DNA of 64,000 nt from Antedon mediterranea (lineage: Eukaryota; Echinodermata; Crinoidea; Comatulida; Antedonidae), in assembly GCF_964355755.1 (NCBI RefSeq), contig NC_092670.1, positions 34,025,795-34,089,794 of the forward strand, read 5' to 3'. Each line of letters starts with the position of its first letter. Position 1 is the first letter of the stretch. The notes beneath the pieces were generated by a model, which was not told where the DNA came from, searched no databases, and worked only from the letters and a program-made list of their open reading frames with translations. A program made the position numbers and the translations under genes. This document shows, piece after piece, positions 40,501 through 63,299 of this stretch.

Positions 40501-43379
40501 ACTTGCATTTTGTGTATTGTTTACTTTGTTATTATGGAAAAGAAGAGAACGTTCCTTTAGATCACTCACGTTTCCTGTCAAATATCACACGCGTACCACT
40601 CGTGTCTTCGCTAACATTCAAAGTGTAGGCCTATACGAGTCTCATTTTGTAAGCAACACCGTTGGGAATTTATGTAGTCTAGATTCCAGACGGAGTTTGG
40701 ACTTAATATCATTAGTTAAAAGATAAATATTTTGACATATATGACGTTTCATACGTGAACTAGATCAAAAATCATCGAAATAACTACAGACTTGGGACAA
40801 GCCTATCTTGAATTGTGTATTGTTTATTTTGTTAAATGAAAACGAATGTTTTATTTAAATCACACGCGTATTGTCGCGTTTCCTGCCAAATATCACACGC
40901 GTACCAGTCGTGTCCTCGCTATCATTCAAAGTGTATTACAGTAGGCCTTCACGTCACGTCTCGTTTTGTAAGCTGTTGGCCTATGGTTTATGTTATTATG
41001 AAGCTAATACACTAATAACATTTTTATATTAGGCATAAAAGAAAAACATCTGTTTTATATTACCATGTTTATGAATACATAATTTTATTGGCTAAACGTA
41101 GGCGAGATTAACGAACGTTTATATTTCGTACCGGTAGGCCTTCTATATAATCATGCGTGTTTATAGACGTACGTCCATACACAAGACTGCAAAAGGTTAA
41201 CACGCTTATTTTCATAATTATGTAAGATTTAATCAGATTTCTACTGTTGTATGCAAAAAAGCTTTTGACACGACGTCACATCGATCACGCGGAGATTTTA
41301 ATTAAGGAAAGTTGACGGATGCTAATCGAATATTCCATGCTCATCTTAGGGATTATTATAAAAGAAAGAGTAATTAAAATGAAGCGTTGCAAAGGAAAAG
41401 TAATGGATGTTATAGGCAGAGTGTAGGAAAAGGTGTGTTACAGTATAGGAATTGTGTGGGGGAAAAGTGTTAGATGGAGAGAGTGATAGATATTATAGGA
41501 AGAGTGTAGGAAAAGAAATGTTAAAGGTAGAGTGTTAAAGCAGGTAACAAAAGAGCGTTACGATGAAGAGTGTTATATGGACCGTAAAGAGTGTGTTAAA
41601 AAAGGTTAAAAGGAAGTTAAAGGGTTTGAAGGTAGAATGTAGAGAGAATGGGTGTTTAAAGGGAGAGTGCAGATTAAAGGAGAAGTGGTGTTATGGATAA
41701 AGGGAGAGTGCAGGTTAAAGGAGGAGTGGCGTTAAGGATAAAGGGAGAGTGCAGGTTAAAGGAGGAGTGGTGTTACGGATAAAGGGAGAGTGCAGGTTAA
41801 AGAGTGAGTGAGTGGCCGAGCGGTTAAGACAGTGGAACCGTAATCACGTAGCCATAACATCGGCAGGGGTTCGAGGCTCACTCACTCCATGGTTCTGGTG
41901 GTAGAACGAGTCTTCTCGGATAAGGACTATAAACCGTAGGTCCAGTGTACACAACTTGCTCGTGTGCACTTTAAAGAACCTAGTACATCTTTCGAGACGA
42001 GTAGGGGGTTACCCCGGTGTATTAGTACATCACAGCCACTGATCACCAACTGGGCCCTCTGGGAGATCAGTCTTTGACTGAAGAGGTCACCCAGTATAAA
42101 AATAAAACAAACAAACAAACAAACAAAGGAGAAGTGGTGTTAAGGATGAAGGGAGAGTGCGGGTTAAAGGAAGAGTGGTGTTATGGATAAAGGGAGAGTG
42201 CAGGTTAAAGGAGGAGTGGTGTTATGGATAAAGAGAGTGTCAACTCAGATTAAAAGAACACTTTTAAGGAAGAGTATTAACGAAGAGTATTAAAGAAAGC
42301 GACAATCAAATAAACGATGTTAAAGAAGGAAAAGTTACCTATAAGAAATGTATTAATTAATAAATAAAGAGCATTTTTATAGGAAGACTTTTAAAGGAAG
42401 ACTTTCAAAGGTTATAATATAAAGGTAATGGTTTCACAACGCTTGTGTGTCTCCCACGTGGTGTTGAATGAATATTAATCGAAAATTTAAATTATGAGTC
42501 ATACCTACATCACCTACACGCGGAATATATATTTACGACTTATAACTTACCAACCACCATTGACGTATATGCTTTATCGATTCCGTCATCAAGATACATT
42601 ACGGAAAGCGGTAAAATTGGACCTATTCCGATTCCGCACAAGACCTGACCGACGATGACCAACACGGCCCTTGACAGTTCAGAAGACGATACAAAAATAT
42701 TATTTTCTGGACAATTATCATCATGTAGGCCTATTATTTCATGTGCATTATCGCCAGTGGCAGAGCATAACAGTTTGTTCGTAATTTCTCCGTAAATGTC
42801 AGTTAGAGGTATTGCTTCTTCGGTGGTGGTGGTGATCGTTGCGTTAGATAAGCCAACGTCAAGTTCGGAGATTGAGGGATCATCTTGAACAAAATGCGGT
42901 AAACCGCAACAGATGATGCCGACTCCGCATATGAATGCACCTAGACTGATCACCCTTGGTGGGTGAGACCTAGACCCACAATAACATGCAAATATTAAAG
43001 TAAGGACTGTCGCAGCGTCTCGAATGTACATAATGCATAATGCTGTTCCGTGAGTTATATCAAAACGGGTCTGTATTGCATTAAGAACACCGTCGTAATA
43101 CGAATGCACTATAGCTCCGTAGGTTGCTATTATAAAACAAATAAGTATGGTGAAAACGACATGTCTGTACGGAGATCGACACTTCCGATTTCTAGCCCGT
43201 AAATTCCTAGATGCTGCACGGCTATTCTGTCTGTTTAGTCCTTCAAGGTGATAGTTATTATCCTCCACTGGCGGGCTGTAATGCCAACTGCTTCGGACTT
43301 CTAGCCCTCCTGCCTGTTCACTTGACATTTTAAATGAGAAACGGTGAGCGGGAAAAGCTGATCTAACAACGCGATTCAA
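31520..43379 (-). CDS. Organic anion transporter (OATP/SLCO family), complete, nine exons
   Basis: Nine exons on the minus strand (43379-42551, 39796-39482, 38574-38410, 35512-35305, 34826-34658, 34114-33921, 32863-32799, 32236-32013, 31579-31520) have matching phases and GT/AG borders and give 742 codons plus a stop, a normal OATP length. The protein has a cytoplasmic N-terminus of about 72 residues, twelve expected membrane segments, and the family signature as SVGAWWLGF in exon 2. An extracellular Kazal-like cysteine domain (CNEGCGCDDHVYEPVC and THY-like TYVSPCHAGC) lies in exon 5, residues about 512-550. The family moves amphipathic organic anions across the plasma membrane. Met18 could be an alternative start. 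The substrate and exact SLCO subfamily cannot be read from sequence. Long introns hold many MITEs. Confidence 0.92.
31646..31805. mobile_element. MITE with CTCTGTCTACACTATAAAAC ends
   Basis: Left end AGCTCTGTCTACACTATAAA and right end AGTTTAATAGTGTAAGACCA are inverted copies. The interior has the near-repeated phrase CATATCACTACCA. Lies in intron 8 of the SLCO gene. Confidence 0.6.
31812..31987. mobile_element. MITE with GTTTTCCAxTA...GCGAATATATTCG ends
   Basis: AATGTTTTCCATTAACGAAT and its inverse AATTCGCCTAGTGGAAAACC border about 175 bp. GAATATATTCGTGCGAATCG is mirrored by CGATTCGAGCGAATAAATTC. Abuts the previous MITE; intron 8 of SLCO. Confidence 0.6.
32013..32236 (-). CDS. SLCO exon 8
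   Basis: GFIPAPFYLEAVLKFGCW (family IPAP motif), DCLLYDAERYRYIFIGMFLC, last membrane segments and cytoplasmic start of the tail. Acceptor CTTTCAG, donor GTAAGG, phase 0. Confidence 0.88.
32799..32863 (-). CDS. SLCO exon 7
   Basis: Short 65-base exon: SVHQYDRAMAVGVTSLMLRVF, matching the RSFALGxQxLxxRLLG region of the family. Acceptor TTTTATAG, donor GTAAGT, phase 1. Confidence 0.88.
32973..33070. repeat. Tandem GGGACGATTCGGCCC repeat
   Basis: Six or so copies of GGGACGATTCGGCCC/T, 14-16 bp each, in SLCO intron 6. Related phrases GACGTTTCGGC and GATGTTTCGGCCC lie at 33460-33490. No regulatory role can be shown. Confidence 0.8.
33641..33785. mobile_element. MITE of the GGTTCCCACTAGGACGCAAC family, copy 1
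   Basis: Left GGTTCCCACTAGGACGCAAC, right GTTGCGTCTCTAGTGACAACC, with CGACAGTTCGAATAATCCAT inside. Further copies at 34511-34636, 34997-35130 and 35135-35272, all inside SLCO introns. Confidence 0.72.
33921..34114 (-). CDS. SLCO exon 6
   Basis: IYTACQCVHWEPAYG, further loop cysteines (GPCQPEPVC), then LFVGAYVALSLITSILGNPA, membrane segment 10. Acceptor TTTTCTCAG, donor GTAAGT, phase 2. Confidence 0.9.
34511..34636. mobile_element. MITE of the GGTTCCCACTAGGACGCAAC family, copy 2
   Basis: CCTGGTTCCCACTAGGACGT ... TTGCGTCCTAGTGGGAACCA, nearly perfect inverted ends about 125 bp apart, 20 bases from SLCO exon 5. Confidence 0.75.
34658..34826 (-). CDS. SLCO exon 5 (Kazal-like domain)
   Basis: Begins FSTANNCNEGCGCDDHVYEP and continues VCDGNGITYVSPCHAGC, the Kazal-type cysteine framework of the large OATP loop between membrane segments 9 and 10. 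Donor GTAAGA, phase 0. Confidence 0.92.
34951..35272. mobile_element. Cluster of two or three MITEs of the same family (copies 3-5)
   Basis: A partial copy (TTGGTTACCACTAGAGACGC, 34951-34990), a full copy (34997-35130, GGTTCCCACTAGGACGCAAC to TGCGTCTTAGTGGGACACAA) and a diverged copy (35135-35272, ending GTCGTGGGAACCAACTTTTA) lie head to tail between SLCO exons 4 and 5. Confidence 0.68.
35305..35512 (-). CDS. SLCO exon 4
   Basis: TISLPGIIFGQIIGGYIVRK, then MVFFMCVVSVCCTPLLILIG and the start of the large extracellular loop (CGNPKIAGYTTEYP). Acceptor TATTTTAG, donor GTAAGT, phase 2. Confidence 0.9.
35524..35965 (-). mobile_element. LINE 3' fragment
   Basis: Minus strand: remnant coding text (RRTSFIYNGP near 35930) and a 3' untranslated region with GGACCAAACTTAAAGCCTTG and CGTCCTCCTCATACAATTAT, ending in an AACTTGAACTTGAAT-like tail at 35524. 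Typical of CR1-group 3' ends. Lies directly next to SLCO exon 4. Confidence 0.5.
36001..36272. repeat. 69-bp tandem repeat, four copies
   Basis: Unit starting CATGTTTTCATATGTTTCTG recurs at 36001, 36070, 36139 and 36208, almost identical. Because 69 is a multiple of three, an open frame of 23-residue units runs through on the minus strand, but this is a by-product of the period, not evidence of a gene. Confidence 0.92.
36488..36640. repeat. (GAT/GAC)n microsatellite
   Basis: Imperfect GATGATGACGATGATAAT-type trinucleotide run in SLCO intron 3. Confidence 0.85.
37615..37850. mobile_element. MITE-like repeat, GAGCTC family, copy 2
   Basis: AGGCAGTCTTGGATACTGAG, CTCGCCTTGCCAAGATGGGA and GTCGCAGCCACAGATAAACC, then ATGATCTCCGGAGTTGGATT: the same order as in the copies at 8388 and 50775. 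Inside SLCO intron 3. Confidence 0.6.
38410..38574 (-). CDS. SLCO exon 3
   Basis: LCFSLGRLLKNAAFTSMVVG, EVAIISGFFFLSGKYMLKQF and ATAVIV, a membrane segment and start of the next. Acceptor TTTGTAG, donor GTATGT, phase 1. Shares a 24-of-25-base match with the end of exon 1 (see findings). Confidence 0.88.
39482..39796 (-). CDS. SLCO exon 2
   Basis: Acceptor TTACAG, then VFIIALVVGPMAGYFAW, the family signature (DTDSVGAWWLGF) and FFPKSLLP. Ends phase 1 at a GTCTGT donor, a less common donor chosen because it keeps frame with exon 3. Confidence 0.88.
41640..42245. repeat. ~42-bp minisatellite split by a SINE
   Basis: Units of the form AAAGGGAGAGTGCAGGTTAA, AGGAGGAGTGGTGTTATGGAT recur before 41800 and again after 42126, and a looser GAGTGTTA-type array precedes them from about 41390. 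A SINE (41801-42126) lies in the middle of one unit. SLCO intron 1. Confidence 0.82.
41801..42126 (+). mobile_element. Full tRNA-headed SINE
   Basis: Begins with a tRNA-like head (GAGTGAGTGGCCGAGCGGTT A box, GGGGTTCGAGGCTCACTCAC B box). The body has CTCGGATAAGGACTATAAAC, TGTGCACTTTAAAGAACCTA and GGGGTTACCCCGGTGTATTA, then GGGCCCTCTGGGAGATCAGT, and the end is an (AAAC)n tail. RNA polymerase III promoter boxes and an A-rich tail define it as a SINE; it moves with LINE enzymes. Interrupts the minisatellite, with AAAG possibly duplicated at the borders. Head resembles a Leu/Ser-type tRNA. Confidence 0.82.
42551..43379 (-). CDS. SLCO exon 1
   Basis: Codes the N-terminus and membrane segments 1-4: HVVFTILICFIIATYGAIVH (segment 1), GVLNAIQTRFDITHGTA, and LPLSVMYLDDGIDKAY near the end. 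Contains an NAT glycosylation sequon in the first large loop. Donor GTAAGT at 42550-42545, phase 1. Confidence 0.9.
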
Positions 43380-45161
43380 CGCCAGTATAATCTAATAAAA
43401 ATTTACATCTGAACGCTATCAGAAATCAAACAAAAGCTATCCAATGTTTACCGTCCGTCCTTCCTTGAACAACGCAGCCTTCTCACCGTAAACATGACCT
43501 ATAGTAAAGCAAGCCTGCATTAACTAACTCATCAGCATACCACTTGGGAGGCTAGACGCTGGGTTTGTAACAACACAAATGAAATCACATGAACATCGAA
43601 AACAACACAAAAAACCACTGCACATATGTGAATCCTATTAAACCATTCTATTGATGTAAATCTGCCGTGACGAGTCATTTATTGTACGGGAAGCATACGA
43701 GGCTTATGCATTAGACAATCCATTATTAGTTGCAATTGCTTGATACTTCTGTACAGTACGATTGACATAGATTCCCGTTATTTTGTTTTTCCAGTCATGC
43801 ATACGTAACATTTATTGTTCGTGGTTGGTCATGGCATTATGATTTTCTATCACTTGCTCAATCAAATAATAAATGAATGGTTGCTCTTATAACAGCCAGT
43901 CCAACCTATATACACTGTTTTCGTATAGGATTTATTTAACTAGCTAAACTAATCGTCGCACGTATTGATGTAAATTAATGCACTCCTCTTGTGGTGGCGC
44001 AATTCGTTATAGTGTGTTCACACAAGAGGGGTATGGCGTTTTGTACTTTTTCGAGGTGCAAACAAACTGTGCACGAAACCACGGGGTTATAGGTACCATA
44101 CACACCACTGAAGAAATGACCCAATCATGAATTAGAAATTAACAATATAAATTCTAGGAATGCAACCAATGGAAGTACATCAATCCGTTGGGTTTTATTC
44201 GTCTTATTCATCATTTCATTTCATTTTTTATTCGGTCTATTTCAGTATGTACATAGCAAAAAAAAATGAAAACCTAAGTGAACCTCTTGGCTCAACCCCA
44301 AAGTCAGTTTACACATAGAGATACAAAATACAGTTAGGCCTAAAGAGAATCAAAATAGACCGAATACATTCATGAACTTTTCTAATGAAGGACTGATGAA
44401 TACATCTGGGATGCAATTAAACACCAACTTATCATCAGGCCTATTATACAAATTAACGAATCAAAATTTCCGCTGGAAAGATCAACTGACTTTTGAGAAA
44501 GATGGCTTATGGGATTTTTTTTATATTCGAAACCAGTATTCTCTATATTTTGCTATAGCCTAAACAAAACAAACTATCATATTATGTTTATATAAATGTA
44601 TTTTAATATATCAATCCATTATTTAGAGAGAATACACGGGTCATCAGTATTAGAAGGATACCCTGAATGTTATTGGGACATTTTGAAAGGCGACTAAAAA
44701 TCATTAACATTTTATTAGTAAAAAATACACCAAAACAATCGTCCTTTATGATATTGTGGTGATTATTAATCGCGAAAACATCGAATTGAGACTCTAGAAC
44801 GCGACACTAGTTTATTCCTGATGCTAAATTGTAACCTAATTTTGCATTTACAACGCCCCCCTTGGTGATTACCGACCTACCAAAAAAAATGTATATATTT
44901 CACATTTAAATGTCATTTTCGGGCTTCATTGAAGTATTGTGGATCATCGAATTATTCCAGTTAGGCCTATATTCTCGACTCTGATGCATAAGTTGGGGAC
45001 ACTATAGGCCTATACATAATGAACCAATTGATGTGATTGCGTCCAGATATCTTAGGCCTACAAGATATGGATTTTTTTCAAATCTCTGACCGTTATTTAC
45101 AAGACTTATTCGACTTACTGAGGTAAGTTTATACAATTAAGTAGCAGCTTTAAATTAATAA
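43380..45161. other. Upstream of SLCO, no gene seen
   Basis: Should contain the SLCO promoter and any 5' untranslated exon, but no TATA box or CpG-rich core could be singled out. A LINE-tail-like fragment CATTTCATTTCATTTTTTAT with an internal ATTCGGTCTATTTC / AATAGACCGAAT hairpin lies at 44214-44365. Confidence 0.4.
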
Positions 45162-49371: not shown

Positions 49372-50503
49372 TGCTAGTTACAATTAAAATACAGAATTCA
49401 TGGATTGGTACATGAATGCCAAAAATTTCAAAATAACATATGAATCTCTTGGTGCAAATTTTGCAACCAAACAGTAATTTTTAATATGTACCTATTGAGC
49501 TGTTTATCTACTTATAAGTTCATACCAAGTTCATGCAACCCAAGTCTTGTCATCGTCCATTATATTGGGGGTCAACCATTATGAATACAACTAATTTCCA
49601 CAATGATTGATTATATTTTTTAACTAAAGAAATTAAAATGACATTAACTAGTATAGTATGAACATTTCCAGACTTTGTAATAATTACCATCTATTCATTA
49701 AACAAACCAAGTCACAGAAAGATAAACATAACCATTACCCGAATGAAAATGGTAGATCCCAGCTCGCTATCATTAAAACATAGGTGTCTTAATTTGGCAA
49801 TTGTGAATATAAAACACGACATATAGAACTAAATAACACCTAACAATTGTTCCTTATATATCAAACATTAGAATGATATAAAAATTAAAATGCTACTTAC
49901 AATTATATAATGAAAAAATTAACCCCAAACTTAGCTACAATCCAACGGTCTGTCAAGTGAAGGCTTCATAACACAGGCAAACCCTATTTGAATTTTGCCG
50001 CCTTTTTGAGCATTTTTTAGATTTTTTCAAAATAGATTTTGCTATTTTGACACAGTCTATTTTAAGCCAATGCTCATAAGAAAAGTATGTAAGGAATCTA
50101 TGAATATTCAGCTTTCTTTTAAGAAACTATCCAAAATGATTGATGGCCTACAAGTGATCTTAAATTGCAAATAAAACACTGTGGTGCTTTAGAAAATAGG
50201 TAAAAAATTGACCTCACACTGTCAGCGGGCAATGGATGGTGAGTTTTAAAACGTAAAATGACACATACTTTTTGTAACTTTACAATTTCAAACATATATC
50301 ATAATGTTCAGTATTGTCTACAGTTTATTTTGAGCTACTATCCAAAAAAATCCGATTTATAATAGCCGAGATATTTAGGTGGGAACATGAAAATCAAGTG
50401 TTTTGTAGAATATCACGATGCGAAATCAGTGGTATCCATGTCCCAGTGGAGTGTGTTGGGGCAATTTAGCTATTTCGTTGCTCAAGAGATTCATATGATG
50501 TGT
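49372..50503. other. Between Helitron dimer and multicopper oxidase, no gene seen
   Basis: AT-rich; would include the 3' untranslated region of the oxidase at its right end. Confidence 0.4.
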
Positions 50504-50602
50504 TTAATTGGCCATCTTCCATGGACCACATGTGGGCATATCGCCAGGCGGTTGAGGGATTTCGTCCATCTCACCGACTTGGAAAATCATAGCTTGTCCT
50601 GT
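50504..50602 (-). CDS. Oxidase exon g (C-terminus)
   Basis: TGQAMIFQVGEMDEIPQPPG then DMPTCGPWKMAN and a TAA stop at 50504-50506. The PTCGxW ending is typical of animal laccase-like proteins. Acceptor CTATTTCAG. Confidence 0.85.
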   Translation of the reverse strand, partial: TGQAMIFQVGEMDEIPQPPGDMPTCGPWKMAN

Positions 50603-53600
50603 CTGAAATAGAAAAAGAAACCTATGAGGAAAAATATTACAAGACCAACTTCTTGGATAATACAATTTATTTTTTTTTAAAGAAACAATAGAATTTGAAA
50701 TGAATAACAGAAAAACTTGTCACTAAATTCTGACTTCAAATAGGAGGAACCAAGCTTTACCCTGCTTACACTTAATACTTGGAACAAGGCAATCTATCAA
50801 CAGGACACTGAGCTCGCCTTGTCAAGATAGGAACTTGTAACAGTCCATTTATCAGTTAATAGGCGTAGAATTGATCGTGTCGGAGCCATATATAAACCCT
50901 TTGATCTCCGGAGCTCAGAATCCTGTTGTTGGATTGCCGTGCTTGGAGATTACTTAGTTCTTTCATTACTTACTTCTAAATGACTGTTTGTTACCGCATT
51001 AAATAACCAATAACCAGGATTATCCGCCTTCCATCTTAAGATTACGTAGCCATATGCAGGTACATTTACAGTGTCTTTAATTACAGCTTCGTCGGGTGAA
51101 ATTCTTGTAAGTAATCCTAAAATTGTAATAAGTAATAATAATTTCGCTTTCATATCAAAACAATAGCGTAATAATACAAATCTTCGCTTTTAACTTCCCA
51201 TGGTTATAAATTCAATTTATCACAGTGGTTAGTTTACGCCAATCTATCAGACATTCTATCAGAAAATCTATCAGACAATCTATCATACATTCTATCAAAC
51301 AATCTATCAGATATTCTATCAGACAATCTATCATACATTTTATCAGACAATCTATCAGACAATCTATCAGACTTTCTATCAGTCAATCTATCAGACATCT
51401 ATCAGACAATGCATTCTATCAGACGATCAGACAGTCTATCAGACAATCTATCATACATTTTATCAGACAACCTATCAGACAATCTATCAGACAATCTATC
51501 AGACATCCTATCAGACATTCTATCAGACAATCTATCAGACAATCTATCAGACATTCTATCAGATATTCTATCAGACAATCTATCAAACATGCGTTGCGCG
51601 CGTTTTGTGAAATTGTTTCTATTGTTGTTGGAAGGTATCTACGCCTACAAGATTCGTGAAGAGAACAACGGAATTAATTAGTGTATATAACGTTCTATAT
51701 TTGCTTTATTTTACCTTGTTCGTCTAATTCTTTGAGTTCATCTTTTGTAAACAAACTACCAATTCTACCCATGCCTACAACTCGAGCGGAAGCTCCGTGC
51801 ATGTGTACTGAGTAATCATCTGAATTTTGATTTGCAATAACGAGTTCAACGACCTAAATAGAATAAATACATAGATTGTGATTTTTTAACAGGATTTAAA
51901 TTTCTTTTAGCAATTTATACGAGTTCTTCTCTCTTGATAACCCTGGGTCATGAGCTGTTTGATGTTGAACACAGCTAGCTACAGTGCATGTTTCATAAGA
52001 TCGTGATGATTCTGGGGTTTATGAGGCCGATTATCGGCATTCTCTTGTGGTAATTTGTTTCTGTTCGTCTAAGGTAGCGCAAACTATCGTCCGTACCCAG
52101 GGCCTGTTTCTGCTATATTTTTGGCGGCAGACATGGTGCTCACAAAAATATATCGTATAAAACATACCGTATTTTGCCCCACCAAATGTGTGGATAAAAC
52201 AAGGTATTTATAAATTTATACCGTATTGTGTGTACCCTTTTCTGCTTCAAATAAATATACCATATGTTTTGAATTTCTGTAAGCTTTTTACACACAGATA
52301 GTCTATAGTCAACGAAAGTAAGGAACAACATCCTAACATTTGCAATCTGCTGGATAAACAAATATTTCGGAGAAAAAAGAACAACCAGATTTAGAAATGT
52401 ATTTATTTATATTTTGTTTTAAAGCAAAATTTAAGGAGAGTACGGGGTGGTGCGCACTTGAAACAAGTCAATACAAATCAAGTGACTGTTGAAGAAAAAG
52501 CTACAACATCGCCACAGATAACAAATTCTAATTTACGCAAAGAAGGAATAACTTGTACTCATTTTGGGGGTCGAAAGGCAGGTTTGGTTTAATAAAAGAC
52601 ACGACCACCTACTGTAGTAATTTTAGCAGAAACGAGGTACTCAAAACACGGTAAATAATATATTGTATTTTATATACCGTATTCTTATAACATATTTTAG
52701 GATATGCTGCAGAATCAGACTCGATCGGACTACCCCTTCCCATCCAAAGTATGACAATTCAACTTTTGAAATCTACTGATAGGCATGGCGTATTTAATGA
52801 GTTTACCTTTCCAAGAGGTATCTTTAAAATACTAGTACATCTGCATAACACGGTGATACCGTCACAACTTTGATACAATTCATCATCTGTCGTGGGTTCG
52901 CAGGTTTCAACCGTTTCTCGATTGAACAAAATCGGAGTGTCCGGATACAAGAAGGCGACATTGTCGACTTCAAAGTAACTTAACACATTACCATCCGCTA
53001 AACGTCCATCAGGAGCGTATATTCTTTCTGCGCAATAGCTTAACGTTATATAATACTTGACGTCTATGGTGTACAAATCTTTATCGAAGTTTCTTTCTAA
53101 AAAAAAAAATGTTTACGAAAATTACGTCATAAGATGAAGTAAAGTTGGAATTCTTGACTTTTCGTTTTCACACCACGTGGCTTGTGACTATTAAGTAAAA
53201 ATATCATTCTGATTAGGCTCATGCACAGAAAGGTCGATATTGTGTCAGTAAGAAGTACTAGGCTTTACTTTATTTCCCATTGCCTTATTGTTTTAAACAT
53301 TGTTGATGTATTGTAACCCGCAGTTTATTAACAAATGTTTTCTTATTTTTAATGTTATATACATTAGACCAATAATAGATGAATTGAATTGAATATATAG
53401 TGCATAATCAATGTATTGGGCCTATAATAATGTTTTAATATGGTGGAGAGGTAATGATGAGAGTGAGGAATATTCATTTTTGTTAAATGGTCTTACCGAG
53501 AGGCAATGCATCAAGTACTGAAAATTGAGGTGTGTTTGTAAGAGTCTCTGGAGTTTTGCTAACAGGGTAACAAGAAGGCCCTACATTGGCTCCAGTTGTG

Positions 53601-55045
53601 TACTTCAAAATGGCAACTCCATCATCAACGCATTCAGTCTCTTTTGATCCAGCGTAGTATATACAATACAATGCAGGTTTAGCAGTAGCCTTCAACAAGA
53701 AATCGTATCTAAAGTAAATTAGAAAGAACAATTATAAAAACAGCATGTGCATCTAAGGTTAAGATATTGTAATAATAAGAAATAAGTTTAAAATGATTTT
53801 TTTCTGCCATCCTCATTATTTGAGAAAACACGCAACTAGAGTTTATAGATTACAACTTACCTTTCGCCCGGAGCTATAAGAATGGAATCAACTTCTTCAG
53901 GTACTACCTCAGATCCGTCTACTGCGACTACCGTTAGAGGATGTGATTGGATTGATACTACGAGGTTACAAAGAGCAAAGGCAGCACTGATCATCCGGAA
54001 ACGATACGTCATTCCTACTTCGACTTCAAATGTTGACAGAGGTGTATAAAAAACGTCACCATGATCATTGTAGAAGGGTTCTTCTTGTGCTCTCCCGTTT
54101 ATAAGTATAGAAAACTTCTGGGCTTCAGAATCTACGTAAATTGTCGGACTGTCAGTCATCAAGTATGTACTCAGAGTTGGTCTTTCTTTCCAGTCAGCTA
54201 TCATCATCACATGCTCCGGAAGATCAAAGTCATATAAATGACTATTATATTCGTATTGCATGTTCTTTTTTACTATCAGCGCTCCATACATACCATCATT
54301 TCTCATGTAACCAGAATGTCCATGGTACCAGTGAGTGCCGGCTGGACTTGCTGTGAATTCATAAACAAACGAAGATGAAGATGCGACTGGACATTGCGTA
54401 ATCATGGAAACACCATCCATCCAGTTGGTTCCTTCTTGGTGCATTCCATACCAATGTATCGTCATTGCTCCTCTATCTTGTAGATTGTTAAGTAACTTTA
54501 CTTGAACCGTATCCCCTTCACATACCTTAAATATATAAAAGATCCTTTGTGCCTTACTCGATCAGGTTGCATAACGCTGAATAATCTAAATGTGTCAATT
54601 AAGCATGGTATTTATTTTTTAGCCAGTTTTTATTGCATATTTTAACTAATTATTGGAACCAGTATAAATTCTTATAGTATTTTTGATGTTCTTATATGTT
54701 GCTTTTAAAATGTAGTATCCCTGTAGTATTCATGTCTGTTTTGAGGACATGTCCCTGTAGTATATTCATGCCAAATCCCAGCTCAATACTACAACAAATA
54801 AGGGAGGAGAAGTACTATAAAAATCGCACTTTTTACTCAAATAGTTTCGGAAGGAGGAGAAGATGAGAGAGTCTTAGACTCGGGTACCCCGAGTAAAAGC
54901 CCGTTATGGTACAATATGCCAAATTTACCTTGATTGGTTGATTACAAGATAGGTCTATGTGGTAATTCTTACCTCAATGGTTGGCCCGGGTATAGTGTAA
55001 TTAGTAGTGACAGAAGGTCTTGAGACACCGTCAAGTGCCAGACAT
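50504..55045 (-). CDS. Laccase-like multicopper oxidase with copper ligands lost; 5' exon(s) not found
   Basis: Seven exons (55045-54973, 54525-53861, 53708-53497, 53096-52807, 51853-51715, 51116-50974, 50602-50504) have matching phases and encode about 539 residues ending PTCGPWKMAN. The three cupredoxin domains are recognisable: NYTIPGPTIEVCEGD, then HWYG and THWYHGHSG, CTSILKIPLGK-VVELVIANQ, and NPGYWLF. Copper ligands: motif 1 is HWYG (usual HWHG), motif 2 HGH is kept, motif 3 is YSVHMHG (usual HPxHLHG), motif 4 is NAVTNSH (usual HCHxxxH). So five of ten ligands are replaced, including the type 1 Cys. Secreted laccases oxidise phenols; this one should not. Preceding codon phase is 2, so at least one more N-terminal exon with signal peptide is missing. 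Insects have a comparable ligand-poor relative (MCORP). Confidence 0.85.
50775..50945. mobile_element. MITE-like repeat, GAGCTC family, copy 3
   Basis: AAGGCAATCTATCAACAGGAC ACTGAGCTCGCC (left) and GATCTCCGGAGCTCAGAATC CTGTTGTTGGATTGCC (right) are imperfect inverted ends. Lies in the last intron of the oxidase gene. Confidence 0.65.
50974..51116 (-). CDS. Oxidase exon f (copper motif 4)
   Basis: GLLTRISPDEAVIKDTVNVP, GYVILRWKADNPGYWLFN then AVTNSHLE. The HCH of motif 4 is NAV; the last His is kept. Donor GTAAGT, phase 0. Confidence 0.86.
51232..51600. repeat. 12-bp tandem repeat (AATCTATCAGAC)
   Basis: About thirty copies of AATCTATCAGAC and close variants (ATTCTATCAGAC, AATCTATCATAC). The 12-bp period keeps long frames open on both strands, reading RQSIRQSI and SDRLSDRL; these are not genes. 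In an oxidase intron, with no effect on its splice sites. Confidence 0.93.
51715..51853 (-). CDS. Oxidase exon e (copper motif 3)
   Basis: VVELVIANQNSDDYSVHMHG then ASARVVGMGRIGSLFTKDE. The type 1 His of HPxHLHG is replaced by Tyr, the other two His kept. Donor GTAAAA, phase 1. Confidence 0.86.
52807..53096 (-). CDS. Oxidase exon d
   Basis: KYYITLSYCAERIYAPDGRL, YPDTPILFNRETVETCEP, ending CRCTSILKIPLGK, domain 3 start (compare CTHVLxLPLG). Acceptor after a T run, donor GTAAAC, phase 0. Confidence 0.86.
53497..53708 (-). CDS. Oxidase exon c
   Basis: RYDFLLKATAKPALYCIYYA, ending SVLDALPLG, domain 2 end. Acceptor TTTACTTTAG, donor GTAAGA, phase 1. Confidence 0.86.
53861..54525 (-). CDS. Oxidase exon b (domains 1-2)
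   Basis: VCEGDTVQVKLLNNL, TIHWYGMHQEGTNWMDGV, THWYHGHSGY, then domain 2 through LTVVAVDGSEVVPEEVDSIL and the APGER-like turn. The codon for Tyr in HWYG is at 54450-54448. Donor GTAAGT, phase 2. Confidence 0.88.
54973..55045 (-). CDS. Oxidase exon a (first seen)
   Basis: CLALDGVSRPSVTTNYTIPG, then PTIE: the start of cupredoxin domain 1. Acceptor TTTCGATAG, incoming phase 2, donor GTAAGA. Confidence 0.82.
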
Positions 55046-56191
55046 CTATCGAAAGAACATATAATTAATAATAAAGTTATGGAGGTAAAAGTTTACAAAC
55101 AGACGGCAATCGATCAGTCAACCATTTTCAAATAGAAAGTACATACTGTGAATGTATTCTATAAACAGTAGCTCAGTTTAATCTGAGCACGTTTGAAAAT
55201 GTTTAAATATCGCTGTTAATCGTACATGTATCGTGTTTGTTTTACGGAAACGACAGCATTCTGCCATTCCTGATGAATCCTGAATTTAATCAAGTTAGTT
55301 TAGTATACCCACTAGTGTGCTATTGTTGAATAAAAAATAAATTAGGAAATAAAATTATATAATTAGAGATACACCGTGACAAATGGTAAGTGTTACTATT
55401 GTTCTTAATATTATGTTCTAAATTGCCAAATGCGAAAAGAACAAAAATGGCTGAGACTAAAAAAGATGTAGTAATACATCTGGGGGGTAGGATTTATTAT
55501 CAAACAAAAAAACTCTGCCTTAAAGATCAGGTACAGGCATGAAATTTAAATATAATATTTGGTTAATTGTACATAAATCAAATATTTGTAACAGAAATCA
55601 AGACGAAAAAACACACATTTTCCTTATTGTCAAATACAACATTTGGCAAAATTCTTCCAGAAAAAACAGGAAGACTTTTTTTCAGTAGTTAGGTAGTTAA
55701 CCTAATGTAATAACATGTCTGGTGACAACCTAAAAGGTAAAAAAGATGGTGGATATACGGTGGATAATTTTTGCTATAGCATGAAAATAAAAATCTGGAG
55801 TTGAATAAAAATACCAGAAATGTAATATTCAAGTTATATTACCTGTATTTAATCATCTGATAACATTTTTTACCACACCGTTTATTTTTCATAGCTTTTT
55901 AAAAGGCCTTTCTATTTACAAAATTTGTGTACAAAAGAATAGAGATTTTACTGTGAAATTTGAACTATCCCCCCACTGATAAGAAAGTGCTTATTTTCAA
56001 CAAGCTCATGTAACACAAATAAATTCCAAAAAAATTATGAAACATAGGGGAAACTATAGATCGATAATTATTGGAATGTATGATCAATAGAAATTTTTTG
56101 CCCGCACCTGGCCTTTTGCTTAGCTTTATCCATATATCTAAGCAAAAGTATTTGCTTCATTTTGTCTGAAAAGAGCTTATAACTTGCTTAC
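55046..56191. other. Gap between oxidase and P450-like exon, no exon seen
   Basis: The missing N-terminal exon of the oxidase may lie here or further upstream, but no frame with a plausible signal peptide and compatible phase was found. Confidence 0.35.
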
Positions 56192-56329
56192 TTGCAACGT
56201 TTCCGATGATAGGGTAAGGCGTTTGAGCAGGTGGCATTCCAGGTGTACGTCGAATGTTGAAATGATCCACGTAAGCAGCAGGACGACCAGCACTACGACT
56301 AGAGACAATGTACTTGTACACTTGAACAT
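56192..56329 (-). pseudogene. Frameshifted first exon of a cytochrome P450
   Basis: A Met at 56329 opens a 25-residue hydrophobic anchor, MFKCTSTLSLVVVLVVLLLT then WIIST. Immediately after, a different frame reads RRTPGMPPAQTPYPIIGNVA, the Pro-rich hinge (PPGPxPxPIIGN) that follows the anchor in microsomal P450s. One base lost between the two would restore a standard P450 N-terminus. A GTAAGC donor follows at 56191. No further P450 exon is found downstream toward 55 kb, where the oxidase begins. It may be a dead exon, an assembly artefact, or part of a gene whose other exons lie elsewhere. Confidence 0.55.
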
Positions 56330-56629
56330 CCTATAAGAAAACAAGCATTTATAAGCCAACAATTGTTTATACATTACATTATTTTTTTCAACCAAATAAC
56401 CTAGAAGACAAAAATTGAAACATTACACGAGGAATGTCATAAATGGTGTCAATTTGTTTATTTCAACTTGTTATCATTATTCATCAATATTTGTGAAATC
56501 CACTACTTCTGTAAACTTTGCTTCATTGTTAATCAGTTGAAAGCGTCCGACTCTCATGACCGTGTTTATACATCTGAAAAGTAAAATGTGTCGAATGCGC
56601 AACTTTAGTATTCATTCTTAATACTGGGA
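56330..56629. other. Spacer, no gene seen
   Basis: No feature recognised between the P450-like exon and a SINE copy. Confidence 0.3.
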
Positions 56630-56830
56630 GCCTCTTCGGTCAAAGACTATTCACCCAGAGGGCCAAATTATGATCAGTGGCTGTGTGAGCCAGTGGCTGA
56701 GTACGGGGTATCTGTACCTACGATTTATAGTCCTTATCCGAAAAGAGTCGTTGACCACCAGAACCATAGAGCGAGCGAGCCTCGATTCCTTGCCGATGTT
56801 ATGGTTACGTAGTTCGGCGACTCACTTGCT
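56630..56830 (-). mobile_element. SINE copy, reverse orientation
   Basis: Contains the inverse of the SINE end (AGAGGGCCAAATTATGATCA), ACGATTTATAGTCCTTATCC and a degraded tRNA head (AGCGAGCGAGCCTCGATTCC). Related to 41801-42126. Confidence 0.65.
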
Positions 56831-57109
56831 AAACAATGTATTAGTTTATCGGTCTGCCATTAAATGTAAGAGATCAGATACGAGGTGGCTTTTTTTTAAA
56901 GAAGAGCTCAAGGATGGATCTATTTTACAGTGGGTCAATAAACGATTCGTGCTAAAAATGCAGTCTTTTTTTAGTAAAACTAATTTATTCAAATTATTCT
57001 TTTTCCAAAAACTAACCTTGACAGTTTCGCTGTCCTGATCGGACAGCTTCTTCAGAAATAATGACGATCTATCATCAAACAGACTGACCTCTAGAGGGCC
57101 TATTCTGTT

Positions 57110-58130
57110 TAATGACAGGGTCATACACGTGACTGAGTTGGTGGGTGCCCTCGTCTCTGTTGATGATTTGGTTTCCTCGTCTGCGGATCCAGATGGCTTC
57201 TCTGATGCGTCGGTTGTTTGTATCTGGTTCCCTGTCGATAATTTTAGGTTGTGTCCAGTCTATTATGTGATTTAACTTGACGGCATGATCTGCTATAGCT
57301 GATTTACTCTCTATGTGATTGACGAGTGAAGTTCTTTCTCTGTTGGGTTATCTTTTCTGTTTCTTTTCTATGTTCATTTAACCTTGTGCCAAAACAACGA
57401 CCCGTTTCTCCAATGTAGGTGTGATCACAATTAGAACATGAGATTTCGTAGACGCAATTAGCCACTTTCAATTTGTCAATTTGGTCCTTTGGGTGGACAA
57501 GTAGTTGGCGTAATGAAGTGTGGGGTTTCATAGCTGTGTTGATGCCAAACTCCTTAAACACTTTACTAACTCGCTCCGAAAGTCCTGCTACATAAGGGAC
57601 GACTACAAATCCTTTGCTTTCCATGGTGTTTTCTTTCTTCTTGGATGTTACTTTTTTATTTTCTTTCATTTTTTTCTTTACTTGGTTGAATGACCACTTA
57701 GGATAGCCACATCTGGAAAGGGCTTATGTTATATTGGCCTCTTCTGTATTACGATCTGCATCCATAGTGACAATGGAATTCATACGGTCAAATAGTGTTC
57801 TGATTATTCCCAGTTTTTGATGTACAGGATGGTGAGAATCAAAATGTAGGTACTGGTCCGTATGTGTCGGTTTTCTATATACTAAAAGTTTGACAGATCC
57901 ATCTGGTTTTCTAATGATGAGAGAATCGAGGAAAGGGATCTTGTTTTCGTATTCTTTCTTGTAGGTGAACTTTATGGTGCCAGCTGGGTCAGATGAATTG
58001 AGATGTTGTGTGAGATTTTCAACTTGGTCTTGTTTAACAATTTCAAGAACGTCATCCACGTAGCGTTTCCATAACCGAGGTTTACATTCTAAGGGTGCTG
58101 ACGCTATAGCTTTCTGTTCTAGAAATTCTA
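57110..58130 (-). pseudogene. Penelope-like reverse transcriptase/GIY-YIG fragment
   Basis: Minus-strand reading: WKRYVDDVLEIV (catalytic Asp pair), FLDSLIIRKPDGSVKLLVYR, PTHTDQYLHFDSHHP, a stop at about 57724, then CGYPKWSFNQVKKK, GFVVVPYVAGLSERVSKVFK, and the GIY-YIG endonuclease NCVYEISCSNCDHTYIGETG. A frameshift near 57310 leads to SAIADHAVKLNHIIDW and REAIWIRRRGNQIINRDEG, the end of the domain. Upstream reverse-transcriptase motifs are missing, so the copy is a dead 5'-truncated insertion. Confidence 0.8.
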
Positions 58131-58210
58131 AATTAAACAGAATAGGCCCTCTAGAGGTCAGTCTGTTTGATGATAGATCGTCATTATTTCTGAAGAAGCT
58201 GTCCGATCAG

Positions 58211-59109
58211 TGATTTTTTTTTTCGTACATAAGTTGGGGACCCCTCATGAATAATTCATCAGTTAAATTTGTTTTTCCGTGTGCACCCAAGCGTATAGCA
58301 ACAAGAAGCGATTACACTGGGCGATACGATTCTTTCTACAGTAGGCCTAGGATTCTAGGTCAATTCACGTGATTGCCTTCGCGTCCTCTTCTTCACACAC
58401 ACCACTGGCACTATGCATAATGTGTCGAGGCTAATCGACAGCTAGGCAAGACACATTCAACTAAGTAGTAATTGGACATAGAATTTGTGTACTGTAATTT
58501 TTTTAATTCTGCTATTTTACTATCAAACAATATGTACTCAAAGGAACTTGTGTACTGTAATTTTTTTAATTCTGCTATTTTATTATCAAACAATATGTAC
58601 TCAAAGGAACTTTAAAAATGCGCGTATATGAACACATGAGATGGGAAGATTAGACCCACCAGAATAAAAAATTTATTTTTGTGTAATGTTTATTGTTTAA
58701 TTTTGCTGACTTATTAGTATTACTCGGACTGTGTCATACCTAACACACACACAGCTACTACTAGAATAGACATGGGTTTAGAGACTAACATTAGGCCTAA
58801 TACATGTAGTATTAATAGAAACTATCATTTTAACACGTAATTCTTTAGTAATAAATTATATTAAAAACACCATAAACTAAAGGCTGATTATTTCGACAAT
58901 CCACACAAAACGCCGTTATTCTTTTATGAAATCGCACGCCGCAACCACAGCGGAGATAGGCCTAGAATCGTACCGCACTTGTGTAATCACTTCTTGTTGC
59001 TATACGCTTGGGTGCACACGGAACAAGAACATTTAACTGATGAATTATTCATGTTTATTTTGTGACGTTTCATGAGGGGTCCCCAACTTATGTACGAAAA
59101 AAAAATCGC
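58211..59109. mobile_element. 899-bp MITE with long inverted ends and 10-bp duplication
   Basis: Both ends carry GATTTTTTTTTCGTACATAA then GTTGGGGACCCCTCATGA in inverse orientation; the similarity extends over about 110 bp (GTGCACCCAAGCGTATAGC is mirrored). The flanking 10 bases GTCCGATCAG occur at 58201-58210 and 59110-59119, a target duplication. It splits the right inverted flank of the Penelope-like element, which shows it arrived later. Ten-bp duplications suggest a Mutator-like element; class remains tentative. Contains a 66-bp internal duplication near 58485-58612. Confidence 0.85.
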
Positions 59110-59149
59110 GTCCGATCAGGACAGCGAAACTGTCAAGGTTAGTTTTTAC

Positions 59150-59633
59150 TAATTATTGGTTTGTAAAAAAGAATAATTTCAATATACTTATACCTACAAA
59201 CCAGATGAACATTTTCAATCACTAATTTATTCATTGAAGAAAACTACATATTATACAATATGATAAGAGAAGAGTGTTCACTCTTTCCTGTTTTCTATTT
59301 CATTATTGCTGAACAAAAAAAAACTTTACAGAATTTTTTTTTAATTTATTCAACGCTATTGTATTTATTGGAAATTGGGAGTTGAAAACTTGAGTAAATT
59401 TGCGAATAAATATTTGCTGCATCATACTTCTACCTCGCTCGAGTTTTAAACAATTGTAACCTTTGAAATGTAGGCCTACACTATATTTTACTACGCTGTT
59501 TGATAACGAGTCAGGCTATCTTTATATAGTTTTCTCTGTGAAAAATAAAAGATGATGTGTGTAAGGTCTATGGTTTAAATCTTTCTTGGACAGTAAAATA
59601 ATACTTTGCCATTTAAAATCGTGTATTGTAGTT
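59150..59633. other. Spacer, no gene seen
   Basis: Downstream (3') of the P450 exon on the minus strand; contains a short palindrome at 59266-59290 (AAGAGTG / CACTCTT). Confidence 0.4.
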
Positions 59634-59888
59634 TTAATTTCGTGAATGTGCAGCTGACTGATAAGGTCGAGTAAAGGTCACTATCATTGGCGTTCCTTCG
59701 ATTGCTACGTCACCCGTCACTCCTGGAGCTTTCTCAAATGTATACCGTAGTTCTGAGATAACCACGTAAAGAAGGAAGATCTGACTAGCTTTAGCTAATG
59801 TTTGTCCAACACACGCTCTCCGACCAGTGGAAAACGGCAGATAGCTCGGAAGGTGTTGTTTGATAGTGCCCGTCGAATCCAAGAATAT
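59634..59888 (-). CDS. Cytochrome P450, last exon with heme-binding loop
   Basis: Acceptor TTTTTTTATAG (59890-59889) opens IFLDSTGTIKQHLPSYLPFS then TGRRACVGQTLAKASQIFLL. FSTGRRACVG matches the P450 heme-thiolate signature FxxGxRxCxG, with Cys as the iron ligand. The frame continues to a TAA stop at 59634 after TGDVAIEGTPMIVTFTRPYQ. P450s of this type oxidise small hydrophobic molecules in the ER. The 84 residues are the usual size of the terminal exon. Earlier exons were not identified in the 4 kb to the window edge, which is mostly repeat, so the gene probably extends beyond 64000. Confidence 0.78.
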   Translation of the reverse strand: MFLDSTGTIKQHLPSYLPFSTGRRACVGQTLAKASQIFLLYVVISELRYTFEKAPGVTGDVAIEGTPMIVTFTRPYQSAAHSRN

Positions 59889-60489
59889 CTATAAAAAAAA
59901 ACACAGTACAGTAAGTAAAAGTAAGTATCCAAAATAATGAATTGTCCTGAGTTAGAAAAAACATAACTGCCATTCAACGATGAGACTAAGTTAAATGTAA
60001 CAATCAGTCTTAACAATGAAATCATTTCTTCTATTCAACGAATAATAGGCCTATTTTTCCTGTCCATATTGGTTGGTTAGGTCCATGTAAAGATAGTATT
60101 TTGATCTGTGAAGCAGGTCAATTACTGCAGACGTAGAAATGTATTTCTGTGTTACAATATGGCTATACTACTATTTATACCAATATTACAGACAAGAGCT
60201 GACGTTTATATTAAAATACCTGGTTTAAACGCTACAGATTCATGTTGAACATTGTCTAATTTTTCATTATTATCGATCATTAATTAGTCTATTTTTTGAA
60301 AAGAATTTAACTTTCGATAAACCAATTATCAAGTACTAACTTCAGCTATTTCCAATAGCCGGCCTTGGTCACGCAAATTATAAATAATAAATTCATAACA
60401 GTACTTATAATTGTCCTGTATGTGTAAGATGTATGTGCATCTGTGCATGCTTTTACATTTCGATAGCCCATTGCAATGCCCATACATTT
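59889..60489. other. Probable P450 intron, no exon seen
   Basis: No splice-bounded P450 exon found. Confidence 0.35.
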
Positions 60490-61021
60490 CTAGATATGGA
60501 GCCCATGTGGGTTTTGTATGGGATGGGCTTCCTAAAGATGGGACCCACATGAGGGGCGTGGGTGCAAAAACAGAAGAATCCCATATTGGCAACCAATTAT
60601 GATACCCATTTGTTTTTAGATATGGGCCCCATGTGGGTTTTGTTTGGAATGGGCTTACCAAGATGTGGCCCACATGGGGCCCAAATGGGCAACACATAAT
60701 TTGCCCACTATGTCTTAGGATATGGGACCCATATGGGAAAAATATGGTACCCATAATTTTTTCTGATATGGGTCCCATGTGGGTTTATATTGGCTATGTG
60801 GGCATTCCAAATGGTACCCTTGTGTCAAAACAAGAAGAATCCCATATGGGCAACAAAATACGATTTCCATATGCTTTGAAATATGGGCCCCATGTGGGTC
60901 ATATTTATGGTCTATGTGGGCCTTCCCATGTGGGACCCATATGGTTCTTGGGTGCAAAAGTAGTTGAATCCCATATGGGAAACACAACATGATACCCATA
61001 TGCTTTGCAATATGGGCCCCA
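60490..61021. repeat. Palindrome-rich tandem repeat (ATATGGGCCCCATGTGGG type)
   Basis: Units of roughly 45-120 bp each begin with AATATGGGCCCCATGTGGG or GATATGGGWCCCATGTGGG, and contain CCCATATGGG and TGGGTGCAAAA. Starts are near 60496, 60618, 60720, 60765, 60880 and 61010. Much of the text is self-complementary. Open frames here are side effects. The array continues at 61430-61520 after a LINE fragment. Confidence 0.82.
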
Positions 61022-61430
61022 TATTTCATTTCATTTCATTTCATTTATTTATTCGACCAACAAAACATATATATAATGTACAAAGATGAAATTGGTCAGG
61101 GACTGCTAAAGTAATACGATTACTGTAACTACAAGAGTCAGCAGTCCCATGATCTTAACTAAAATAAATATAATTATAAACAAATAAAGTATAAAGCTGT
61201 GAGTATACAGAAAAAAACAACAAAAAAACAAAAAAAGAACAAATATGATTTTAAAAAAATTTAATTAAAAATAAACAAAAAAAAACTTATTAATAAATTT
61301 AAAAAAGAAAGAATTAAACATAATTATCATGAAGGAAAGAGTCAATAGATGATAAAAGATGAGGAAAAGATTCAGTAACAGCTAATTGGCGTAATGAGGA
61401 AGGTAACTGAGACTAAAGCTTATATGGTTT
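61022..61430 (-). mobile_element. LINE 3' end fragment with (AAATG)n tail
   Basis: Plus-strand start CATTTCATTTCATTTCATTT is the inverse of an AAATG tail, as at 13022. The rest is AT-rich 3' untranslated sequence. It interrupts the CCCATATGGG repeat array. Confidence 0.6.
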
Positions 61431-61520
61431 ATATAATGGGCTATGTGGGCCTTCCCATGTGGGACCCAAATGGTTCTTGGGTGCAAAAATAGTGGAATCC
61501 CATATGGGAAACCCATGTAT
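61430..61520. repeat. Continuation of the palindrome-rich repeat
   Basis: TGGGCTATGTGGGCCTTCCC, GTGGGACCCAAATGGTTC and GGAATCCCATATGGG match the units before 61021. Confidence 0.75.
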
Positions 61521-61532
61521 GCTCTCATATAC

Positions 61533-61998
61533 ATTTATACAATTGCATTTTTGTTATCATCTGCTTGAATTACCATTACTATACCTATTATCATTATTCA
61601 CCATAATTATTTTCTATTTTTTATACATGTCATCATCAATGCATTTCATTTCTTTTATAATCTTTGTACATACATTATCAATTAACTTTTTAACAATTTT
61701 TATCTTTTTAATTCTTACTTTTGCTTGAAAATAAATACAACTTAAAATGCGTTTTTATCTTTAATTGTTATACATGTTAACGTTAATGCATTTTCTTTCT
61801 TTTATAATCTTATATACCTTTCTTTATACCTGCGTTATCGAATTAACAAATTGTTTTTTTCTCTTTGAACAATGTTTTCATAAATACAAATACGATGCGT
61901 TTTTATCTTTAATTAATTGTTATACATGTCATCATTAATACATTTCCTTTCTTTTATAATCTTATACATTGATTATACTTATATTTTATTTTATATAT
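61533..61998. repeat. ~150-bp tandem repeats (TTATACATGTCATCATTAAT type)
   Basis: Three diverged units contain TTATACATGTYATCATYAAT, GCATTTCMTTTCTTTTATAA and CATTATCAATTAAC; a further piece (CATACATTATCAATTAAC) follows the LINE at 62890. The LINE therefore lies inside the third unit. Confidence 0.6.
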
Positions 61999-62890
61999 AT
62001 CAATCAATCAATCAATCAATCGTTCGATTTATAGAGCGCCATTCCAACATTCATTGCTCATGGCACTGTAAAAAAAATCAGAAAAGGTGAGTTTTGAGTA
62101 GTGACTTAAAGTGACTCAATAATGATGTGTGTTTAATGTTCAAGGGTAGGTGGTTCCAGAGCCTAGGTCCAGCAACACTGAAAGTCCGATCTCCCAAACT
62201 ATGTTTGCTCCTTGGAATGTCCAGTAGCACCTGATGACTAGATCTTAGTTCTCGCTTTCCCTTCTTGACTGTCAACAATTCTGAGCGCAAGTATTTAGGC
62301 ATCGGAACACCAGCAGCAGGATCTTAAATTTAACACGTGACTCCATGGGTAGCCAATTTAACTTTTTGAACAATGGTGTGACGTGATCATGACCAAGCGA
62401 GCTGCCCAAATTGTGCACCTTCTGGAGAGTCCGCAACTGCTTCTTTGGCAGACCATACAGCAGGGAATTTCCCATATCAAGCCGACTGGTAACAAAAGCA
62501 TGTACAATCTGCTCTGTTGCACAATAGTTCAAGTAACGTCTGATCTTGGCGATGTTACATAAATGGAAAATAGCAGATCGGCAGATTTTGTTGATATGTG
62601 ATCATTTTACAATCAAGTTGTACACCAAGGTTACGAACTTCTGATGATGGATTGACTAGTACGCCACCAATATGTAGGCCATCAAACCGGATCTTTTTTC
62701 TCTGCTGAACAGAACCAAATAGGATCACCTCGGTCTTTTTATCATTTAGCTTGAAAAAGTTGGAGAATGGAGCCCATCCATTTTCTAATCTCAGCAGTGC
62801 ATGATTCTAACCGTTTTACGGCGGTCAGAATCTCAGTCTGGCAAGGCTTGACAGAAACGTAGTTGTATATCATCTGCATAGAAATGATAC
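61999..62890 (-). mobile_element. LINE fragment with reverse-transcriptase C-terminus and (TTGA)n tail
   Basis: Minus strand: an YADD-type motif near 62875 (YADDIQLYVSVKPCQ), then frames broken by shifts that carry VTSRLDMGNSLLYGLPKKQL, HDHVTPLFKKLNWLPMESRV, and RTFSVAGPRLWNHLPLNIKH, SFKSLLKTHLF. These are C-terminal reverse-transcriptase blocks of the CR1/L2-like group. The 3' tail is (TTGA)n at 61999-62020. Several frameshifts show decay. Confidence 0.75.
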
Positions 62891-63299
62891 ATACATTATC
62901 AATTAACAAAAATGGTTTGTTTTATAAATATATATTACTGTTTTCTATATGATGTTTGTTTGAAATAAAAGTGGGATGCTTCCACATAAAGAAAAAAAAA
63001 TGTATGCTCTCATATGGATATGGTTCCCATGGGATATTGTATCCGAAAAAAGTATTTATTCCAGGAGTGTTGAAATGCACACCGTGTGTCAGTGTGAAAG
63101 ACCATATCGGACAAGAACACGTTTTTACGTAGGTGTACGTATGATATGTTATCTTTAATAAGTTAGCAGACGTTATGTCGGTAAGCCACTTTTTGTTCTA
63201 GCTATAGATTAGGGATTACTCTTCAATCTCTTTCTATGGAGTGGTCCTCGTCCGCTATGCGTGACGATTACATTTACTTTAAATGTTTTGTAATGATCC

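Follow-up and report, generated by a model that had tools for sequence, protein, structure and literature searches.

Introduction

Multicopper oxidases bind copper through ten histidines and one cysteine, whose sites are given for Fet3p in PMC4203857. Ligand-poor relatives of these enzymes are already known, and the same paper describes the plant proteins SKU5 and Bp10 as well as the insect multicopper oxidase-related protein (MCORP), which is reported to be essential for viability and ovary development. We describe here a ligand-poor laccase-like copy, W, in a 64 000-nucleotide stretch (the window) of contig NC_092670.1 (C1; positions 34,025,795 to 34,089,794) of the crinoid Antedon mediterranea, together with two relatives from the same genome, P1 on C9 and P2 on C8. 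An echinoderm origin agrees with a tektin exon of this genome, which scores 290 bits against entry 8snb, from the sea urchin sperm axoneme, and 156 bits against the entries that come next; a search for COX1 gave no match. In the reading that we favour and hold to be fairly likely, W is a dispersed 5'-truncated copy of a ligand-poor laccase paralog from a subfamily that lost its ligands long ago and has been maintained since. No ligand-poor echinoderm laccase was found in a literature search that covered mostly the beginnings of abstracts, and one may exist in print.

Gene model and copper ligands

W was read on the minus strand at 55059-50504 as seven blocks with matching phases and no stop before the terminal TAA (Table 1). 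All block borders are GT-AG except the start of the first block. The first-pass annotation of the window had described seven spliced exons with compatible phases and no stop; the blocks, frame and phases hold, but its first 'exon' is a fragment of one. The motifs HWYG, YSVHMHG and NAVTNSH, which it had reported, were recovered on re-reading the minus strand, and its residue correspondence to animal laccases agrees with an alignment to the solved structure closest to W by sequence (laccase 8r7i, 9.2e-70) and to six canonical paralogs of the same genome. Three cupredoxin-type domains are present in W (Cu-oxidase_3, Cu-oxidase and Cu-oxidase_2). In Pfam searches exon B matched Cu-oxidase_3 (100.6 bits) and Cu-oxidase (63.4 bits) and exon F matched Cu-oxidase_2 (35.6 bits); exon E scored 19.1 bits, below the cut-off of 20.4, and exons C and D gave no matches.

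W retains six of the 11 ligands: both type 2 His, three of the six type 3 His and one of the three type 1 residues. Motif 2 keeps both of its His. In motif 1 the first His (type 2) remains and the second has become Tyr; in motif 3 the second (type 2) and third (type 3-alpha) remain and the first has become Tyr. Motif 4 reads Asn-Ala-Val in place of His-Cys-His and retains its last His (type 1). Five ligands are thus lost, as had been claimed, but from a total of 11 and not ten by the count in PMC4203857. The claimed replacement of three of six type 3 His agrees with the alignment to the canonical paralogs; of the type 1 residues said to be replaced, the Cys and one His are indeed gone, but another type 1 His is retained.

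The losses are largely shared. P1 retains six of the 11 ligands and P2 seven, so that the laccase set of ten His and one Cys is incomplete in all three copies. All three have lost the type 1 centre (its Cys and one of its His) as well as a type 3-beta His in each of motifs 1 and 4, and all three have both type 2 His. P2 has all three type 3-alpha His, and W and P1 have Asn at one of them; the His-Cys-His position accordingly reads NAV in W, NAL in P1 and HSL in P2, where the first His is retained. Among the 78 other columns that are invariant across six canonical paralogs (L010 was left out of this count), 69 are retained in W, 67 in P1 and 68 in P2. Since W keeps 69 of 78 such columns and only six of 11 ligands, its loss is concentrated at the ligands (Fisher test, p 0.013; P1, p 0.024).

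From the exon A remnant to the stop codon W carries none of the marks of a pseudogene (stops, frameshifts or intron loss), and the sole lesion seen in its coding part is the 5' truncation. A retroposed origin was ruled out because introns are present. Intron E-F measures 598 bases in W versus 300 in P1; at 51230-51590 it contains a tandem repeat, judged by eye, with a unit like ATCAGACAATCT.

Relatives and common origin

A protein search of the genome gave 66 matching stretches. In P1 and P2 the splice sites are good. Fourteen other loci were read (L003-L016), and all 11 ligands are present in each of the nine paralogs readable at all four motifs: the gene at C5:15.51 Mb (L003 and L004, 11 kb apart and counted as one), five genes of an array at C5:3.3-3.4 Mb, the gene at C5:15.55 Mb and two on C9. 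L016, which is among these nine, carries a stop in exon C. Of the remaining loci, L011 has no readable motif 3, L012 has no readable motif 4, and L013 and L014 carry stops. The C5 array is a tandem array of canonical laccase genes (C5:3312500-3432500), with three equal-score places about 27-28 kb apart (3362791, 3389816 and 3418168).

Trees were built from ten rows, all of them paralogs from this genome. They do not include the array copies L006 and L016 or the unfetched ones, the distant locus L011, the incomplete L012, or L013 and L014, which carry stops. W, P1 and P2 form a clade with support of 100/100 for exon B, 100/99 for exons E-G and 86/89 once motifs 3 and 4 are removed. For exon B, the three group with the gene at C5:15.51 Mb and the array on C5 (100/99), separate from the laccases at C5:15.55 Mb and on C9; in the exon E-G trees their placing with the C5 genes is weak.

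P2 is a recombinant gene. Compared with W, its exons A-C differ at a synonymous divergence (dS) of 0.28 and its exons D-G at 1.24, and its intron C-D is hardly alignable with that of W (86 mismatches in 182). By parsimony, both sides of the older D-G split would already have been without the type 1 Cys, the type 1 His of motif 3 and the last type 3-beta His; parallel ligand loss or short conversion tracts would be less simple than one shared loss. The change of the first His of motif 4 to Asn probably arose later, on the W/P1 side, because P2 retains this His.

Selection

A test of the ratio of nonsynonymous to synonymous divergence (dN/dS), which the first-pass annotation had proposed for orthologues in related echinoderms, was run on W, P1 and P2 by the NG86 method, with which values at dS above 1 are rough. 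It gave 0.231 for W-P2 over exons D-G (at dS 1.24), 0.248 for P1-P2 over the same exons and 0.357 for W-P1 over all exons (at dS 0.126). For exon F of W-P2 the ratio is 0.05, with dS saturated. Losses shared across a split as deep as dS 1.24, together with dN/dS of 0.23, point to maintenance of the subfamily, and these alignments show it to have been kept under purifying selection in the ligand-poor state.

W-P1 introns diverge at 214 of 1722 positions (12.4%), near dS; intron A-B was left out of this neutral estimate as unalignable (229 mismatches in 443), and the alignment of intron D-E contains a poorly aligned part (16% mismatches). Changes polarised with P2 amount to 25 nonsynonymous and 17 synonymous on the W branch and 23 and 21 on the P1 branch, with seven ambiguous changes (two synonymous, five nonsynonymous) left out. 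Both depart from the neutral expectation (W, p 0.008-0.044; P1, p 0.0003-0.003, depending on kappa). The exons of W and P1 have the same length, with no indels in 1614 coding bases; over the 1722 intron bases that could be aligned, 25 gap openings were counted. About 11.7 coding indels would be expected in W had it been neutral throughout, and none was seen (p 8e-6); the indels are unpolarised and half were assigned to each branch. By this estimate no more than about a quarter of the time since its split from P1 would have passed without constraint on W, which was probably under constraint for the greater part of its history. These W-branch statistics record past constraint on W and are no sign of present function.

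Truncation and flanking sequence

W is, judged by comparison with P1 and P2, a 5'-truncated copy and not a full-length gene. The P1/P2 exon that ends in IPGPTIE starts far upstream and encodes a Cys-rich N-terminal region (LIQSLGCQEKKG...CARACEYPARPQVCEYVFDVRWFYSMSGYCFDCPTRSDDCSLDRCLPLDG in P1). Of the 14 other loci, 11 have this region, and L003, L004 and L011 gave no match; in the L003 gene it lies just beyond the stretch compared (C5:15511529). The match of W to this exon begins only at 55059, with 179 bp missing by P1 coordinates. An acceptor that the first-pass annotation had placed at 55046 falls within exon sequence in P1 and P2, which read through the site (P1 TTTAGATAGATG, W TTTCGATAGATG), and is discarded; the ATG there is out of frame. 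No match to the missing N-terminus was found within the 64-kb window, nor on the assembled C1 around W, where only residues 60-88 match. W thus has no intact 5' end with a Cys-rich N-terminus and, since that end is gone, the open frame from the exon A remnant onward does not show a working gene.

Upstream, the high-copy repeat stops short of 55059, and a transposon edge was therefore rejected as the cause of the truncation. For the interval 55060-55519 no match was found apart from itself and a 71% stretch on C8 near broken laccase fragments, which weighs against a simple recent copy. Beyond the repeat lies an orphan P450-like first exon. Of its ten genomic matches one is at W, and the other nine, at 19.730-19.805 Mb on C9, flank P1 on both sides. 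The exon itself has no Pfam match, and its P450 identity rests on two other exons of the C9 gene (Pfam p450, 60.6 and 89.4 bits). Outside the exon no match was found between the C9 P450 copies and the W region, which speaks against a simple recent copy. The C9 region (19730000-19805000) is an array of nine P450-like first exons in which the ligand-poor laccase P1 is embedded.

On the 3' side W is followed by a DNA transposon with perfect 15-bp terminal inverted repeats, which copies on C6 and C2 match at 100% (1066 and 1063 bases); it is evidently very young and perhaps recently active. Homology to the P1 3' flank picks up beyond it, at about 49442-49373.

Table 1. Features of W, its flanks and its two ligand-poor relatives (window coordinates unless a contig is given)
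Feature	Position	Strand	Remarks
Exon A remnant	54973..55059	-	P1/P2 homology starts mid-exon at 55059; donor GT after 54973
Exon B	53861..54525	-	Motif 1 HWYG (type 3 His to Tyr); motif 2 HWYHGH intact
Exon C	53497..53708	-	
Exon D	52807..53096	-	
Exon E	51715..51853	-	Motif 3 YSVHMHG: type 1 His to Tyr; type 2 and type 3 His retained
Exon F	50974..51116	-	Motif 4 NAVTNSH: type 1 Cys and two type 3 His gone; last type 1 His retained
Exon G	50504..50602	-	Stop codon TAA at 50506-50504
DNA transposon	49437..50497	-	About 1.06 kb; terminal inverted repeat CATATGAATCTCTTG; 6 bases past W stop codon
High-copy repeat	55520..56116	.	About 600 bp; upstream of truncation
P450-like orphan first exon	56192..56329	-	1-nt deletion versus aligned C9 copy
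P450 last-exon-like stretch	59691..59900	-	78% identical to C9 P450 last exon (Pfam p450); matching frame open
P1	C9:19741443-19746271	-	Exons A-G open; HWY / YSVHMHG / NALPNSH; motif 2 intact
P2	C8:26773261-26776946	+	Exons A-G open; HWY / YSFHMHG / HSLPNSH; motif 2 intact

Other elements in the window

Reverse transcriptase open frames of a retrotransposon lie at 13187-15598 (-) (RVT_1, 82.1 and 34.4 bits), and an open frame at 16997-17893 is endonuclease-like by eye. The open frame at 42540-43391 (-) matches an organic anion transporter (OATP; 96.5 bits). Another, at 57304-58206 (-), has a GIY-YIG match at the cut-off (22.5 of 22.6 bits); reverse transcriptase-like text beside it gave no Pfam match, and the element is perhaps Penelope-like.

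Discussion

One shared ligand loss followed by maintenance would account for W, P1 and P2. P1 and P2 are most likely non-oxidase proteins, judging from their residues, and probably secreted. With the type 1 site and the His-Cys-His bridge gone, they would be unable to take electrons from a substrate; no known electron path remains in the multicopper oxidase mechanism without these elements, according to PMC4203857. They would be secreted three-domain cupredoxin proteins that act by binding instead of oxidation, and the most economical role would be that of a structural or regulatory partner or scaffold beside the intact laccases. The residual His cluster (the type 2/type 3-alpha site) might hold one or two metal ions, although we lean slightly against this. 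The region of W would descend from a CYP-laccase array like that around P1, and the simplest reading of the truncation is a deletion by which the middle of laccase exon 2 came to be joined to P450 first-exon sequence. W would thereby have lost the 5' part of exon 2 with the Cys-rich N-terminus, and any first exon and promoter before it; it probably no longer makes the ancestral protein. The proposal of the first-pass annotation, that a selected protein and not a pseudogene had been found, therefore suits the subfamily (a three-locus clade with dN/dS 0.23 over exons D-G) but only in part W, which has lost its 5' end.

Several observations weigh against this account. The concentration of loss at the ligands falls short of significance in P2 (Fisher p 0.067), and support for the W/P1/P2 clade drops to 86/89 when motifs 3 and 4 are removed. 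Because P2 is close to W in exons A-C and distant in D-G, the loss in motif 1 is not separately datable, and short conversion tracts could also have moved the later motifs. Constraint is uneven, with dN/dS of 0.57 (W-P2) and 0.54 (W-P1) for exon E and 0.72 (W-P1) for exon D. The nonsynonymous deficit on the W branch is just moderate (25 of 42 changes), and the lack of stops among the W-branch changes carries little weight (p 0.12-0.20). A scan for a hydrophobic ATG exon with a phase-1 donor found no first (signal-peptide) exon in about 7.7 kb upstream of P1, and for P2 the 2.3 kb scanned on that side gave one weak candidate, so that we infer secretion rather than observe it. Broken laccase relatives lie upstream of P2 (C8:26763000-26777800, L002 and L017), among them an exon F ending NDLTNSHLE and another fragment with HSMHLHG and, in a different frame, HDQISSH; copies of the ligand-poor group therefore do die.

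These broken relatives, the lost 5' end of W and the fast evolution of exons D and E between W and P1 would also suit a group that is decaying as a whole, its ligand changes being the first signs of pseudogenes. We consider this very unlikely, as the exons of P1 and P2 are open with good splice sites and W keeps most of its other invariant columns; decay as the cause of the ligand loss was rejected on the losses shared across the dS 1.24 split at dN/dS 0.23. The opposite possibility, that a new first exon rescued W and that it is thus a live gene still under selection, draws on the absence of coding indels and the nonsynonymous deficit on its branch and on the intact splice sites of exons B-G. 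It is nevertheless unlikely: the constraint may predate the truncation, and a scan of 55060-64000 for a hydrophobic ATG exon with a fitting donor gave no excess over the control, yielding one sense candidate (the P450-like exon) and one on the opposite strand. The sense candidate would make W a chimeric gene, nascent or already in use, in which the P450-like exon, read from 56329 to 56192, supplies an ATG, a strongly hydrophobic start targeting the endoplasmic reticulum and a P450 promoter. Its 1-nt deletion relative to the aligned C9 copy puts the donor in phase 0, the phase of laccase exon B, so that skipping the exon A remnant would give an open fused P450-laccase frame. We regard such a fusion as a long shot; if true, it would be a membrane-anchored, copper-ligand-poor laccase domain.

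It appears highly improbable that the three copies still work as oxidases through a reduced metal centre of type 2 and type 3-alpha sites. Both type 2 His are present throughout and P2 has the full type 3-alpha set, but the type 1 site has lost its Cys and one His, W and P1 are short of one type 3-alpha His, and recombinant beetle MCORP, with comparable loss, had no detectable oxidase activity (PMC4203857). The resemblance to MCORP, with type 2 His retained and His-Cys-His lost, raises the further question of whether the group is its echinoderm orthologue and the loss very old. This orthology is not supported, and we hold it to be very improbable: the exon B tree, which compares laccases of this genome only, joins the ligand-poor rows to the gene at C5:15.51 Mb and the array on C5, and PMC4203857 reports no MCORP orthologues outside insects.

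The favoured account, an old ligand loss in a maintained subfamily of which W is a truncated copy, would suggest that ligand loss arose again in an echinoderm, beside many intact laccases. P2, as an intermediate state with one extra His, would suggest the order of that loss, and the three copies would give a system for asking whether ligand-poor proteins partner active laccases. W is also a caution that an open frame judged by its own exons may hide a lost 5' end.

Comparison with known systems

Like MCORP, the ligand-poor copies are laccase-like, have three cupredoxin-like domains and form a clade of their own, and the combination of retained type 2 His and lost His-Cys-His tripeptide was found in them, with the first His kept in P2. 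MCORPs retain the two type 2 His and are without most other ligands, whereas W and P1 retain six of 11 and P2 seven. A cysteine-rich region is reported in MCORP, and P1 and P2 have a Cys-rich N-terminal region that is missing in W. SKU5 and Bp10 are likewise ligand-poor relatives of an active oxidase family, and SKU5 retains the type 2 residues; unlike the copies described here they are kin of plant ascorbate oxidases, and SKU5 is without type 1 and type 3 residues (for MCORP and the plant proteins, PMC4203857). With canonical laccases (8r7i, which is Laccase BP76, and the C5 and C9 paralogs) the group shares the fold, by sequence, the exon layout, stretches of the GPTIEVCEGD, IPLG and PTCGxW type and, in P1 and P2, the N-terminal Cys-rich region; it differs in that the nine fully read paralogs have all 11 ligands, five of which are missing in W.

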